Position numbers and translations under genes: made by a program. From assembly GCF_026616195.1 (NCBI RefSeq), contig NZ_JANHDH010000001.1:744001-808000 (forward strand): a DNA stretch of 64,000 nt. The letters are read 5' to 3'. Source of the stretch: Haloarchaeobius amylolyticus. GTDB lineage: Archaea; Halobacteriota; Halobacteria; Halobacteriales; Natrialbaceae. Under the pieces are notes generated by a model, which saw nothing but the letters and a program-made list of their open reading frames with translations, had not been told where the DNA came from and searched no databases. Shown here in pieces: positions 56,736 to 62,586 of the stretch. Position 1 is the first letter of the stretch. The number at the start of each line of letters is the position of its first letter.

Positions 56736-58838
56736 TCAGAGCTTCTCGGACGCCAGCGCCTGTTCAGCCCGGCGGTCCGCCTGTGCGAGGCGCTTCTCCG
56801 AAGCCTTCGCGGTCGGCGCCGGCACGTCCTCGCGCGCCTCGGCGAGGCGCTGGGAGGCCCGCTCCAGCGACTCGGTGACCGCCTCGAGGGCGCGGTCGGC
56901 ACCCTTCGAGTCCGTCTCGGCCGCCCGTTTCGCCGCCCGGTCGGCGGCCTCGGAGATGGCTTCGAGCGCCTGCACGAGGCCGTTGACGGAACTCGGGCGC
57001 CCATCGTCGTCCGCGCCGGTGGCCCGGTCGACGTCGGTGGCGGTCTCGGCCGAGATGTCGGCGAGGAAGCGCGAGAGCGACGCCTTGCCGGTGTCCGGGC
57101 GCTCGATGGTCACCTCGCTGTCGTCGCCGTCGCTGTCGTCGCTGTCGCCATCACCGGCGCCGGTGCCGGGCCGGACCCGGAACGCTCCGATGGCGTCGTC
57201 GCTGTCCCTGACCTCGGTGGTGTACGCGCCGCCGCGGTGGACGTAGACGGCGTCGGGGCCGTCCATGCTGGCCTCGTATAGTCTCCCGCCGAAGTCGTCG
57301 GCCACCGAGACGTCCGTCAGGTCCGCGTCGGTGCCGTCGGCGTCGACTCGGAGCTTCACGGCGTCCTCGCTGGCCACGAGGGGTATCTCGCCCTCGACGC
57401 CGGCGACCGCGGTGCTGCCGCCGTCTTCGACCCCGACCGGCTCGCTGTGGGGCTCGAAGCCGGCACCGTTGACCGTGAGCCGGTGCTCGCCCGCGGGCAC
57501 GTCCTGGACCATCGCGACCCCGCGGAAGGTCGGGACCGCCTCTGGCTCTGACTCCAGCAGCGCCATCGTCTCGACGGGCGATTCGGCGGTCGTCACGCCC
57601 TGACCGTCGGGTGCCTCGTCCGACGAGATGGTCCGGGAGACCGTGGCGATGACGCTGTTGACCGCGCTCGGCGCGCCGATGGCGTCGTACCGGTCCGCGA
57701 GGGTCGCGCGGTGGGCCGGTTCGGAGATGTCGGCGGCCGGGTTGGCGTACCGGGTCTGGTCCCAGGGCACGCCGGCCGTCGTGATGTGGCCCGCGACCGC
57801 GTCCTCGACGAACCCCGGAATCGCGAACTCGAAGCTCAACTGCGGCCCGGTGAACGCCGAGATGTGCTCGGCCTCGGTGGTGGGGACAAGGTCGTAGGTG
57901 GCGTCGGCACCCGTGTCCTCCCGCCCCGCGTGCTCCATCGTCAGGCCGGGTTCGCGTGCGGGAATCGACCCCGGCGGGCTGGAGAGCGCGTCGTAGGACC
58001 GGATGGTGACCGCGTCGTCGACCAGGCTCTCGCGGTCGACCGACGGCAGCCGGTCGTGCTCGTAGATGGGCGCCCCGTCGAGTTCGGGGACGACGTAGGG
58101 CAACCGCCCGCCCTCGTCCCGGGGGAGCCCGTAGGCGATGGGGAGCTGGGACAGCGATTCGAGCGCCTCCAGCCCCCGGTTGGTGATGTCGGCCGCCACG
58201 TCGCCGACGGGGAGGCGCTGGAAGCTCTCCGGGCGCTCGTTGAGCGAGACGGTGCTCGAGTGCGACCCGAGTTCGGCGAGGATGCGCGGGCGCTGCTGGG
58301 GGTCGAGGTGTTCGTTGTTCGGGACCTTCCGCGAGTGGGCGCTGGCGACGTAGAGCTGTGGCTCGTCGGTCTCGGTGTCGACGAACACCTGCAACAGCTC
58401 CCAGTCGTGCCAGTGGAAGTTCGTCGTGAACTGGTCGAACACCGAGTAGAACCAGAACTGCACGACCGCCAGCGGCGACTCCTCGTACTCGACGGCGTGG
58501 TAGAACACGGTCGGGGCGGGCGGCTCACCGCCCGCCTCGAACTGCTTCGTGTAGCCGTCGAACGCGTCGAACCCGTCGACGACGGTCTCGCCGTCTTCCT
58601 CGTGCTCGTACTGGCGCGGGTCCGTCGGGAACCAGCGCTCGTACCTGTCGAAGGAGAGCCGCGGCGCGAACCGCTCGGCGAGCGCCGTCGCCCGGTCGTC
58701 CTCGATGGTCGTCGCCGTCGCGTCGGACTCGCGTTCCAGCAGCGAGCAGCCGGCGAGTGCCGCGGTGCCACCCCCTGCAACCGCCTGCAGGAGCCGTCGC
58801 CGCGACACGCCAGTTTCCGTGGACCGGTCCCCGTCCAT
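56736..58838 (-). CDS. Tat-exported lipoprotein with a Vps62-like region
   Basis: A 700-residue surface protein. SRRRLL and lipobox LAGC at about residue 31 indicate Tat export and lipid anchoring. Residues about 50-330 contain FAPRLSFDRYERWFPTD, VFYHAVEYEE, FWFYSVFDQ, HWHDWELLQVFVD and ASAHSRKVPNNEH, resembling the W-HxxDWE core of Vps62/DUF946-type proteins, with His/Asp/Glu residues suited to metal binding. An Ig-like segment follows (about 430-560), then an acidic linker and a long charged helical tail (about 600-700). Function unknown. It shares its upstream region with the metal uptake operon. Confidence 0.72.
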   Translation of the reverse strand: MDGDRSTETGVSRRRLLQAVAGGGTAALAGCSLLERESDATATTIEDDRATALAERFAPRLSFDRYERWFPTDPRQYEHEEDGETVVDGFDAFDGYTKQFEAGGEPPAPTVFYHAVEYEESPLAVVQFWFYSVFDQFTTNFHWHDWELLQVFVDTETDEPQLYVASAHSRKVPNNEHLDPQQRPRILAELGSHSSTVSLNERPESFQRLPVGDVAADITNRGLEALESLSQLPIAYGLPRDEGGRLPYVVPELDGAPIYEHDRLPSVDRESLVDDAVTIRSYDALSSPPGSIPAREPGLTMEHAGREDTGADATYDLVPTTEAEHISAFTGPQLSFEFAIPGFVEDAVAGHITTAGVPWDQTRYANPAADISEPAHRATLADRYDAIGAPSAVNSVIATVSRTISSDEAPDGQGVTTAESPVETMALLESEPEAVPTFRGVAMVQDVPAGEHRLTVNGAGFEPHSEPVGVEDGGSTAVAGVEGEIPLVASEDAVKLRVDADGTDADLTDVSVADDFGGRLYEASMDGPDAVYVHRGGAYTTEVRDSDDAIGAFRVRPGTGAGDGDSDDSDGDDSEVTIERPDTGKASLSRFLADISAETATDVDRATGADDDGRPSSVNGLVQALEAISEAADRAAKRAAETDSKGADRALEAVTESLERASQRLAEAREDVPAPTAKASEKRLAQADRRAEQALASEKL

Positions 58839-58918
58839 ACCCGCACCTGCGCCCGGCGAGTGAAAGGTCTTCGGCCGAGCCAGTGTGGGACCGGGGCGAG
58901 ACGGGCGGCCCGAGTGGA

Positions 58919-58963
58919 TTAGATTTGTCTAATTCGGTATTTAGAGCACTACTACTAAATACC
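58919..58963 (+). promoter_or_regulatory. Metal-operon promoter with two inverted repeats
   Basis: Two palindromic elements lie between divergent genes. TTAGA-tttg-TCTAA is at 58919-58932. A perfect repeat GGTATTTAG (58936-58944) and CTAAATACC (58955-58963) has a 10-base spacer. The second arm contains the TATA box (ctaaata, centred 27 bases before the ATG at 58985), so a bound repressor would block TBP. TTAG...CTAA units recall DtxR-family operators, and a DtxR-like gene ends the operon. Confidence 0.75.
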
Positions 58964-58984
58964 ATACTCACTCTAAGTCCGATA

Positions 58985-60064
58985 ATGGCAGAATCGAACA
59001 CGCGTTCCAGTAACAGGCGACAGGTGACCAGACGGCGTGCACTGGCCGCCGGCGCGGGACTCCTCGCGACCGGTGCTGCGGGCTGTCTCGGCAACGTCTC
59101 CGGCGGCACCAGCTCCGGCGAGTCGGACGGCTCCGAGGACGGTCCGGTGGCAGTCGCGTCTTTCTTCAGTTTCTTCGACTTCGCGCGCAAGCTCGCCACC
59201 GACACCCCCGTCACGGTGAAGAACCTCGTCCCGACCGGGCTGCACGGCCACGGCTGGGAGCCGAACGCGAGCGTCACCCGCGACATCATCGAGGCCGACG
59301 CCTTCATCCACGTCGGCGAGGACTTCCAGCCCTGGGCGGACCGCGCCATCCAGACGCTGAAGGACGATAACGTCGACACGCAGCTCATCAACGTCCGCGA
59401 GGGCGTCGAGCTGGCCGACCTCGCGGCGACCCTCGACCCCGACGAGGAGGGCGTCGGCCAGAACCGCGGGAAGGACCCGCACTTCTGGCTCGACCCCCAG
59501 CGCGCGAAGATCTCGGTCGACAACATCACCGAGGGGCTGGTCGAGCTCGCGCCCGACCACGAGGACACCCTCCGCGAGAACGCCGAGACGTACAAGACGG
59601 ACGTGCTGGAGACCATCGATTCGGACTACCAGGACATCTTCGACCGCGCCGACCGGAAGGTCGTCCAGCTGGCGGCGCACAACGCCTTCCAGTACATCGG
59701 CGTCCGCTACGGCGTCGAGATGCGGCCACTGGTCGTCAACCTCGCCGCCAGCGGCGACGTGAAGCCCTCGGACATCACGAAGGCCAAGGAGACCATCGAG
59801 GAGAACGACATCCGATACATCGGCAACGGCGTGTTCGAGTCCCGGAAGCCCGCGAAGCAGCTCCTGGCCGAGACGCAGGTCGAGGCGTACTTCCCGGTCA
59901 CGCCGTACGCCGGCGTCCGCGAGGAGTGGGTCGAGAACAACTGGGGCTACGAGGAGATCGCCTACAACATCAACATGCCCACCTTCGAGGTCGTTCTCGG
60001 GAACGAGGCGCCCGAGGACGTCGGCCCCGACGGCTGGGCGGAGCAGTGGAGGAACTTCGAATGA
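58985..60064 (+). CDS. Zinc/manganese ABC transporter substrate-binding lipoprotein
   Basis: A 359-residue cluster A-I (ZnuA/TroA-type) metal receptor. A Tat-like TRRRAL and lipobox AAGC (C34) anchor it outside the membrane. Metal-ligand candidates are H in GLHGHGWEP, H in DPHFWLDP and H in LAAHNAFQY. The His-rich loop of many ZnuA proteins is absent. The expected last acidic ligand region reads PVTPYAGV, so Zn against Mn against Fe stays open. First gene of a four-gene operon with overlapping cistrons. Confidence 0.92.
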   Translation: MAESNTRSSNRRQVTRRRALAAGAGLLATGAAGCLGNVSGGTSSGESDGSEDGPVAVASFFSFFDFARKLATDTPVTVKNLVPTGLHGHGWEPNASVTRDIIEADAFIHVGEDFQPWADRAIQTLKDDNVDTQLINVREGVELADLAATLDPDEEGVGQNRGKDPHFWLDPQRAKISVDNITEGLVELAPDHEDTLRENAETYKTDVLETIDSDYQDIFDRADRKVVQLAAHNAFQYIGVRYGVEMRPLVVNLAASGDVKPSDITKAKETIEENDIRYIGNGVFESRKPAKQLLAETQVEAYFPVTPYAGVREEWVENNWGYEEIAYNINMPTFEVVLGNEAPEDVGPDGWAEQWRNFE

Positions 60065-60843
60065 GCGCCCCGGCCGACGACGCGACGACGGGTGCGCGTC
60101 TTACGGACGACCCCGTCGTCGAACTCTCGAACGTGAACTTCGGCTACACCGCGAGCCGGGTCGTCGAGGACATCTCCCTGCGCATCGACCGCGGGGAGTA
60201 CGTCGCCGTGGTCGGCCCGAACGGCTCGGGGAAGTCGACGCTGATGAAGCTCATGCTCGGGCTCCTGCGCCCGGACACCGGCACGGCCCGGCTCTTCGGC
60301 GAACCCTCCCACCAGTTCGACGACGGGGCCCGCATCGGCTACGTCGCCCAGCAGGCCAGCGCCTCGAAGGAGATGCCCATCACGGTCCGCGAGGTCGTCC
60401 GCATGGGGCGGTTCCCCCACGTCGGCTTCGGCCTCCTCTCCCCCGAGGACGAGAAGATCGTCGACGATGCGCTGGAGACGGTCGGGATGACCGCCTTCGC
60501 GGACCGCCGGGTGACGAAGCTCTCGGGCGGCCAGCGCCAGCGCGCGTTCATCGCCCGGGCGCTCGCCGGCAAGGCCGAACTCCTCGTACTCGACGAACCG
60601 ACCGTCGGCGTCGACGTCGAGTCGGTCGACGCGTTCTACGACCTGCTCGAATCGCTCAACGAGCAGGGCATCACCGTCCTGCTCATCGAGCACGACCTGA
60701 GCGCCGTCACCGAGCACGCAGAGCGCGTGGTCTGTCTCAACCGCGAGGTGTACTTCGACGGGCCGACCGAGGAGTTCGTCGAGAGCGACGCCCTCGGCCG
60801 TGCCTTCGGGACCGCCGCCAGCCTGCTGGGTGGTTCGCGATGA
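60061..60843 (+). CDS. Metal ABC transporter ATP-binding protein
   Basis: A 260-residue ATPase. Walker A GPNGSGKS at 52-59, the Q-loop in YVAQQ, signature LSGGQRQR from 154, Walker B VLDEPTVG and the switch His in LLIEHDLS are intact. The family is ZnuC/MntB-like. The start overlaps the receptor gene stop (ATGA) and its own stop overlaps the permease start, giving tight [13 protein letters not shown] coupling. Confidence 0.95.
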   Translation: MSAPADDATTGARLTDDPVVELSNVNFGYTASRVVEDISLRIDRGEYVAVVGPNGSGKSTLMKLMLGLLRPDTGTARLFGEPSHQFDDGARIGYVAQQASASKEMPITVREVVRMGRFPHVGFGLLSPEDEKIVDDALETVGMTAFADRRVTKLSGGQRQRAFIARALAGKAELLVLDEPTVGVDVESVDAFYDLLESLNEQGITVLLIEHDLSAVTEHAERVVCLNREVYFDGPTEEFVESDALGRAFGTAASLLGGSR

Positions 60844-61871
60844 CGGGACCCGGCGCGCTGTCGGGCCTGCTGCTCCAGTCGTCGAGCCCCCTCGACACCG
60901 TGCTGGCACCGTTCTACTGGTTCCTCTCGCTATGGACCGTGCTGATGAACGGGCTGTACGACGCGACCGGCATCGAGTTCCTCCAGTACGGCTTCATGCA
61001 CCGCGCCATCCTCGTCGGGCTCTGTATCGGCGTCATGGCCCCGCTCATCGGGACGTTCCTCGTCCACCGCCAGCTGGCGCTCATCGGGGACGCGCTGGCG
61101 CACACCGCCTTCGCGGGCGTCGCCATCGGGCTGTTCCTGAACGCCGTGTTGAACCTCGGCGTCTCGCCCTACCTCACGGCGGTCGTCGTCGCGGTCATCG
61201 CGGCGCTGCTCATCGAACTCATCTCCGAGGCGACCGGCGCTTACAACGACGTGTCGATGGCCATCGTGCTCTCGACCGGGTTCGCGCTGGGGACCGTGCT
61301 CATCAGCATCAACGCCGGGGGGCTCGCGGTCGGCGTGAACCAGTACCTGTTCGGCAACCTCTCGACCGTCTCGGCCGAGAACGCCGCCATCCTGCTGGTG
61401 CTGTTCCTCGTCATCGTCGGCGTGGTCGGCCTCACCCGGAACCAGTTGCTGTACGTCACCTTCGACGAGACGGCCGCCGCGGTCGCCGGTATCGACGTGA
61501 ACTGGTACAACCGCGTCATGGTGATGCTGACCGCGCTCGTGGTCGTCGGCGCGATGCAGATCATGGGCGTCATCCTCGTCGCCGCGATGCTGGTCGTCCC
61601 CGTGGCGGGCGCGGCACAGGTCTCGCGCAGTTTCACGGAGTCGCTGCTCGTCTCGGTCGTCCTCGCCGAACTCGCGGTCACGGTCGGCATCGCCGTCGCC
61701 TACTACGGCGAGGCCACGGCCGGGGGCGTCATCGTCCTCGTCGCGGTCGCCATCTACGCCGTGACCGTCGTCGCCGGGAAGGTCCAGGCCCGCACCGGCG
61801 AGGATGCGACGCCGACGGTCGGCAGCATCGACGCCAGCGAGGGCGCCGAGAGCCAGGCCACCTCCGACTGA
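60840..61871 (+). CDS. Metal ABC transporter permease
   Basis: A 343-residue ABC-3 family permease with about eight helices. Family features are LCIGVMAPLIGTFLVHRQLALIGDALAHTAFAG (seen as two blocks at about 60-95), YDDVSMAI-like NDVSMAIVLSTGFALG, VTFDETAAAVAGID and LVAAMLVVPVAGA. It has an acidic cytosolic tail. It starts in the stop of the ATPase gene, and the DtxR-type gene begins one base after its stop. Confidence 0.95.
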   Translation: MTGPGALSGLLLQSSSPLDTVLAPFYWFLSLWTVLMNGLYDATGIEFLQYGFMHRAILVGLCIGVMAPLIGTFLVHRQLALIGDALAHTAFAGVAIGLFLNAVLNLGVSPYLTAVVVAVIAALLIELISEATGAYNDVSMAIVLSTGFALGTVLISINAGGLAVGVNQYLFGNLSTVSAENAAILLVLFLVIVGVVGLTRNQLLYVTFDETAAAVAGIDVNWYNRVMVMLTALVVVGAMQIMGVILVAAMLVVPVAGAAQVSRSFTESLLVSVVLAELAVTVGIAVAYYGEATAGGVIVLVAVAIYAVTVVAGKVQARTGEDATPTVGSIDASEGAESQATSD

Positions 61872-61872
61872 G

Positions 61873-62586
61873 ATGGCGACGACTGGCCCCGACGCGCGGG
61901 ACGAGCGCGACGCGACGGCCGACCTGACGCCCGTGATGGAGGACTACCTCCGGCAGATCTACACCCTCGAACGGGCCGCCGAGGGCCGGGTGTCGAACGC
62001 CGACCTCGCCGACCGCCTCGGCGTCAGTCGCCCCTCGGTCACCAGCATGTTCGAGGTGCTGGCCGACCGCGGCCTCATCGACCGCGAGCCGTACCGGCCG
62101 GTCGTCCTCACCCCTGACGGTGAACGCGCAGCCCTCCGTATCGTCCGCAGACACCGCCTCGTCGAGACGCTGCTCACCGAGCACTTCGGCTTCGCCATCA
62201 GCGAGGTCGACGCCGAGGCGGACGCGCTGGAACACCACATCAGCGACCGACTCTGCGAGGAGATCGACCGCGTGCTCGGCCACCCCGCGGTCGACCCCCA
62301 CGGCGACCCCATCCCGGACGCGAGCCTCGAACTCCGCGGTGAGTCAGCGGCCGTCTCGCTGGTCGACGTCGCCGAGGGAACTGCCGCCGAGGTGACCCGC
62401 ATCGGCACGCAGGACGAGGAGACCCTCTCGTACCTGGTCGCCGCCGGCATCGAACCGGGTGCCAGACTCACGGTCGCGGAGGTCGCCCCCTTCGGGATGG
62501 TGACGGTCGACGTCGCTGGCGAGGAGGGAGCAGAGAGCCTCCCGGAACCCCTCGCGACGCAGGTCCTCGTTCGCGTCGACGAGTAG
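61873..62586 (+). CDS. DtxR-family metal-dependent repressor
   Basis: A 237-residue regulator. The winged helix (about 18-75: MEDYLRQIYTLE, DLADRLGVSRPSVTSMFEVLADRGLI) is followed by the metal-binding/dimerisation domain (RRHRLVETLLTEHFGF, DALEHHISDRLCEEIDR with the C/E/H ligand region) and a C-terminal SH3/FeoA-like domain (about 145-237). It is the last gene of the transporter operon and the obvious candidate to bind the palindromes at 58919-58963. Metal (Mn, Fe or Zn) not determined. Confidence 0.93.
   Translation: MATTGPDARDERDATADLTPVMEDYLRQIYTLERAAEGRVSNADLADRLGVSRPSVTSMFEVLADRGLIDREPYRPVVLTPDGERAALRIVRRHRLVETLLTEHFGFAISEVDAEADALEHHISDRLCEEIDRVLGHPAVDPHGDPIPDASLELRGESAAVSLVDVAEGTAAEVTRIGTQDEETLSYLVAAGIEPGARLTVAEVAPFGMVTVDVAGEEGAESLPEPLATQVLVRVDE

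Follow-up and report, generated by a model that had tools for sequence, protein, structure and literature searches.

A conserved, predicted DtxR-type operator before a haloarchaeal metal ABC import operon, with an unlinked protein as its most likely main regulator

The DNA analysed here is a stretch of 64,000 nucleotides from Haloarchaeobius amylolyticus (hereafter the window; G000:C1:744001-808000), which belongs to a genome of 4.6 Mb with a G+C content of approximately 68%. It holds a metal import operon of four genes on the plus strand, consisting of a ZnuA/TroA-type metal-binding lipoprotein of 359 residues (58985..60064; PF01297, E=2e-45), an ABC transporter ATPase (60061..60843; PF00005), whose nearest NCBIfam model is of the AztA type, under its cut-off, an ABC-3 family metal permease (60840..61871; PF00950, E=5e-57), and a regulator of 237 residues (61873..62586). 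The last gene had been proposed to encode a DtxR-type repressor, and its product indeed holds an HTH domain (PF01325, 59.7 bits, cut-off 26), a dimerisation domain (PF02742, 93.8 bits, cut-off 27), and an FeoA domain (PF04023, 50.6 bits, cut-off 23), the first two of which, scoring over their curated cut-offs, place it among the metalloregulators of the DtxR/MntR family.

The operon is preceded by a gap of 146 bp (58839-58984) between the ATG of the binding lipoprotein gene (58985) and that of a facing gene on the minus strand (58838). Two inverted repeats had been described in this gap, and both can be read directly in the sequence where they were placed. The first, TTAGA-TTTG-TCTAA (TTAGATTTGTCTAA; 58919..58932; site 1 from here on), is a complete DtxR-type palindrome, while the second is a perfect inverted repeat of 28 bp, GGTATTTAG-AGCACTACTA-CTAAATACC, with a spacer of 10 bases (58936..58963). 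A third half-site, TTAGA on the plus strand (58941..58945), begins 22 bp downstream of the first base of site 1 and forms the left half of a weak second predicted repressor site. It is followed on the same strand by the BRE region and TATA box (58949..58961), with CTAAATA at 58955-58961, TAAATA at 58956-58961, and a T at +37 from site 1. The TATA-like CTAAATA, whose centre lies approximately 26 bp before the ATG at 58985, as fits a leaderless haloarchaeal gene, is covered by the right arm of the 28-bp repeat, in agreement with the initial annotation, which had set this arm over a TATA box 27 bases before the gene.

The facing gene (56736..58838) encodes a lipoprotein-like protein of 700 residues with no Pfam or NCBIfam match, in keeping with its earlier description as an uncharacterised lipoprotein, and has homologues in some haloarchaea at 46–76% identity. 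Among the 99 loci searched, it adjoins the operon only in H. amylolyticus and in one congener (G002). Its homologues in G001, G003, G011, and G040 are encoded elsewhere in the genome, and no exact TTAGA-N4-TCTAA site is listed upstream of them on their contigs. The lipoprotein gene was rejected as a co-regulated divergent partner for these two reasons and, since the adjacency is restricted to two species, the gap, initially described as a divergent control region, is not a conserved one.

In order to follow site 1 among relatives, named genomes—almost all labelled as haloarchaea—were scanned with a ZnuA alignment, and the site was sought up to 260 bp upstream. The scan gave 80 named haloarchaeal loci whose metal ABC operon is orthologous; 79 of them retain at least nine of the ten fixed bases and 61 retain all ten, counts that are not independent because the loci share descent, although the bases upstream of site 1 vary freely. 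Nearly all of the loci L001-L030 hold the site, including most of L020-L030, where the homologues are only 33–36% identical. In the promoter alignment, the fixed positions of site 1 are nearly invariant and its four central bases variable, which is the pattern expected for a palindrome bound by a dimer. When the 78-bp promoter, which is AT-rich, is resampled with a Markov model, TTAGA-N4-TCTAA arises by chance with P = 0.0008. Exact matches outnumber those of a reversed control pattern in the 4.6 Mb genome (three versus one), across the genus (six genomes, 16 versus 2), and in 61 relatives (106 versus 40, where a handful of distant genomes, G037, G045, and G053 among them, account for much of the control count). 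Site 1 is a predicted operator of the DtxR type, deeply conserved, and TTAG-type palindromes of this kind precede importer, regulator, and exporter genes alike.

The three exact sites of H. amylolyticus precede the importer, a second DtxR-type gene, and a gene for an ArsP_2 heavy-metal exporter with 10 transmembrane segments. In the relatives, 75 exact sites are listed: a znuA begins at most 130 bp after 19 of them, a DtxR-type gene follows 21, and 10 come immediately after such a regulator gene, ahead of its downstream neighbour. ArsP_2 genes with a site upstream occur in eight genomes, H. amylolyticus included (the others at L157, L172, L174, L176, L181, L227, and L228; in L176, the distance to the gene is approximately 200 bp). 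These sites appear to mark a metal-homeostasis regulon. Single-mismatch matches in the genome, when read through, revealed no clear association with metal genes.

Several individual neighborhoods can also be described. The second DtxR-type gene of H. amylolyticus (L033, 1501-2996; G000:C2) has its exact operator 26 bp before the start and, downstream, a gene for a cation transporter of the GDT1 family (PF01169), which makes it a second metal locus with this predicted operator, and the ArsP_2 (PF11449) gene with the exact operator upstream is located at L032, 229-1514 (G000:C1:2088708). One congener holds an operator with a similar TATA layout before a multicopper oxidase gene (L169, 1501-2936; G003:C1:243700), and another an exact site before one of two tandem small genes that look cupin-like by eye (L225, 1501-2108; G001:C7:181534). 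In G026, an exact site separates the regulator gene from a neighbour that, by eye, resembles a ZIP-type transporter (L226, 941-1944).

When the 80 promoters are aligned without gaps on site 1, TTNGA is present at exactly +22 from its start in 61 of them, and in none at +18 to +21 or +23 to +31; the right half of this second site is weak. The TATA region is also held in place, with a T at +37 in 91% of the aligned promoters and A/T-rich positions at +38 to +41, and most promoters have 23 bp between the end of site 1 and the TATA box. This layout, with the operator upstream of a TATA-like sequence at that place, is shared by the window and 60 of 79 promoters in total. In about 15–19 promoters, the operator is downstream of the TATA box or there is no TATA at +37; most of the other 19 of the 79 hold a TATA-like sequence upstream, with the operator over the start region (such as L095-L097, L101, L104-L106, L115, L117, L118, and L124), and their +22 element is looser, following [TG][TG]NG in 17 of the 19. 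The fixed third half-site and the existence of two promoter layouts may both be undescribed features.

The distance between site 1 and the TATA box in the commoner layout leaves room for an activator, and a dual activator/repressor role has been discussed for the DtxR family in Halobacterium (PMC1779511), both of which would suit a conserved element acting as an activator site or as a basal promoter element instead of a repressor operator. However, this element is found downstream of the TATA box in approximately 15 promoters and, as described below, 22–29 bp before the start of an unlinked regulator gene, two positions that suit repression, and the deletion of sirR in Halobacterium raises the mRNA levels of the targets zurA, zurM, and ycdH in the presence of manganese (PMC1779511). 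A conserved element able to precede or to follow the TATA box is more easily explained as a repressor site, and an activating or basal role is considered highly unlikely. Nevertheless, the 15–19 promoters that deviate from the upstream layout indicate that occlusion from upstream is not the sole mode of action.

Unlike site 1, the palindrome of 28 bp that overlaps the TATA box does not behave as a conserved element. A perfect repeat with 9-bp arms of any kind arises in Markov resamples of the 78-bp promoter with P = 0.0064, and the whole window contains 17 such repeats (spacers of 3–20 bp) versus 14–29 in shuffles, so the palindrome alone is unremarkable. Over the 80 promoters, the arms pair on average at 3.09 of 9 positions, versus 3.03 expected from independent columns and 1.8–3.0 for slid arms, and high pairing is restricted to the window (9/9) and to Halobellus captivus (L111, 8/9). 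Conservation of the palindrome in relatives with the same operon, on which the initial annotation had made its model depend, is thus not observed. Due to this independent-column level of pairing and the slid-arm controls, the palindrome was rejected as an operator, and it is best read as a chance product of a half-site, TTTAG, and a TATA sequence, CTAAA, that happen to be reverse complements.

The operon had originally been interpreted as an autoregulated metal switch, whose own DtxR-type protein would bind the TATA palindrome as its operator. The location of the regulator gene at the end of the operon, the perfection of the palindrome and its overlap with the TATA box, and the retention of 8/9 of its arms (by inspection) in G002, which also holds the linked gene, all point in this direction. 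Nevertheless, nine other operons with regulators of the same clade lack the palindrome yet hold site 1. Site 1 is also retained in relatives devoid of the linked gene, and these observations make this interpretation quite improbable. The part of the original proposal that stands is the presence of a DtxR-type operator before a metal ABC importer operon ending in a DtxR-type gene; what is not supported is the role of the operon's own repressor as sole regulator, because four of the five congeners lack the linked gene and keep the operator, and an unlinked paralogue is present almost everywhere together with an operator of its own.

H. amylolyticus encodes four PF02742 proteins, two of which are relevant here. 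The linked regulator groups with other operon-linked proteins in a clade of 11 members, which has a support of 100/100 and a long branch of length 1.33. Most of the 80 loci lack its gene, as do the congeners G001, G003, G004, and G005, with G002 as the congener that holds it; across these loci and congeners, the operator is therefore not consistently accompanied by a linked repressor. The unlinked DtxR-type regulator (G000:C2:898693-899379, 229 residues) has close homologues in nearly all of 61 genomes. Of the 30 loci of this regulator that were read, 21, among them all six from the genus, carry at least nine of the ten operator bases, beginning 22–29 bp ahead of the gene start. An operator 22–28 bp before the start of regulators of this type is also present in Halogranum, Haloferax, and Halobacterium. 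For both proteins, the best NCBIfam model is the MntR equivalog NF047407, with scores of 184 bits (linked) and 227 bits (unlinked) under its cut-off of 350. In Haloarcula (L053, L057, L067, and L084), a regulator of the unlinked type is convergent with the importer operon and lies approximately 1 kb past it.

Since most relatives lack the linked gene and yet keep the site, and the unlinked gene is near-universal and usually carries the same site, the operon-linked repressor is probably not the ancestral one, as judged from this distribution. The near-universal, unlinked protein of the SirR/MntR type is the most likely main regulator and, given the same site at its own start, probably also represses itself, whereas the linked protein is a patchily occurring paralogue that probably recognises this site too. 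The simplest history that accounts for the patchiness of one gene and the near-universality of the other, with the operator at its start, is an unlinked, self-regulating master repressor to which an operon-linked paralogue was later added.

A division of labor between both proteins can be imagined, where the unlinked regulator reads site 1 and the linked paralogue of H. amylolyticus and G002 has drifted to the TATA palindrome, resulting in two-metal or two-threshold control. The occurrence of the long palindrome in both congeners with the linked gene, the long branch of the linked clade, and an Asp in the dimerisation domain of the window protein, where ScaR and the unlinked regulator hold a His, would agree with such a drift. 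However, only two related species are concerned, common descent explains the palindrome in both, and other members of the linked clade do not have it, which renders a second, separate operator unlikely.

Regarding the metal, the nearest solved relatives of the window regulator include SloR and ScaR, and its residues Asp24, Asp117, Glu120, and His121 align with Asp7, Glu99, Glu102, and His103 of the manganese regulator ScaR, which we take to be manganese ligands. By this alignment, these residues would be consistent with manganese, without constituting proof, and the NCBIfam cut-offs for MntR and for manganese- or zinc-binding proteins were not reached. In Halobacterium salinarum, the homologous operon (L113) holds the operator at 9/10 together with the +22 half-site, and its genome encodes one full-length homologue of the unlinked regulator, which we infer to be SirR. 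SirR has been reviewed as a Mn(II)-dependent autorepressor (PMC3600143), while the DtxR proteins of Haloferax (SirR, TroR, and Idr) have been treated as iron regulators (PMC11349517). The Halobacterium data fit manganese-dependent repression; manganese is favoured, with iron or zinc as possible metals.

We consider that the region 58839-58984 is the promoter/operator of an ABC import operon of the manganese (possibly Mn/Fe) type under repression by the DtxR/MntR family, with an unlinked main regulator, a reading to which we assign a probability of roughly 80%. The conserved operator and its spacing, the position of the TATA box, the distribution of the sites, and the regulator families are read from the sequences, and they lead to a mechanism in which binding, the identity of the metal, cooperativity, and the direction of regulation are predictions. 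A metal-loaded dimer of the DtxR/MntR family would bind TTAGA-N4-TCTAA at 58919-58932. A second dimer, aided by the first, might then occupy the half-site at 58941-58945, two helical turns (22 bp) downstream, a step that is a guess because the right half of this site is weak. This second dimer would reach into the BRE/TATA region (58949-58961) and exclude TFB/TBP or the polymerase, so that import would be shut when the metal is plentiful.

This reading provides a precise and testable operator model for haloarchaeal metal import, defined by site 1, the third half-site, and the TATA spacing, and tells a functional element apart from an eye-catching coincidence. Importer promoters in which the operator precedes or follows the TATA box represent natural variants for studying how archaeal repressors block initiation, and the pairing of a linked with an unlinked regulator at a single operator offers a small case of regulator duplication. 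More speculatively, and with considerable doubt, a three-half-site operator with a fixed phasing of 22 bp, repressing from either side of the TATA box and common to the ancestral unlinked regulator and the later linked paralogue, could reflect a regulator takeover or two-level metal sensing.

Among known systems, the SirR/ycdH-zurA-zurM system of H. salinarum NRC-1, whose sirR is presumably VNG0536G, is alike in its orthologous metal ABC operon and in its operator, with the 9/10 match and 22-bp half-site of L113. There, the deletion of sirR derepresses the operon in manganese (PMC1779511). Unlike the window operon, which ends in a second DtxR-type gene, the Halobacterium operon (VNG6262-6265) is unlinked to sirR (PMC1779511). 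The bacterial regulators DtxR/IdeR and MntR/ScaR/SloR share the domains of the window regulator (HTH, metal/dimerisation, and FeoA/SH3-like) and provide its nearest solved structures. Bacterial DtxR-type operators consist of a TTAG...CTAA inverted repeat, whereas the window holds an archaeal TATA/BRE promoter, with a 5+4+5 palindrome and a third half-site at 22 bp. In Archaeoglobus fulgidus, MDR1 is a metal-dependent repressor of the DtxR family that controls its own metal ABC transporter operon; the kind of control is similar in a different lineage. Leyn and Rodionov (2015; J Bacteriol 197:451) reportedly predicted archaeal DtxR-family regulons, among them an MntR group, with palindromic DtxR-type motifs before TroA-family, FeoAB, NRAMP, and ZIP transporters. 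The control at 58839-58984 is a member of the known archaeal DtxR/MntR regulons, to which the present analysis adds anatomy.
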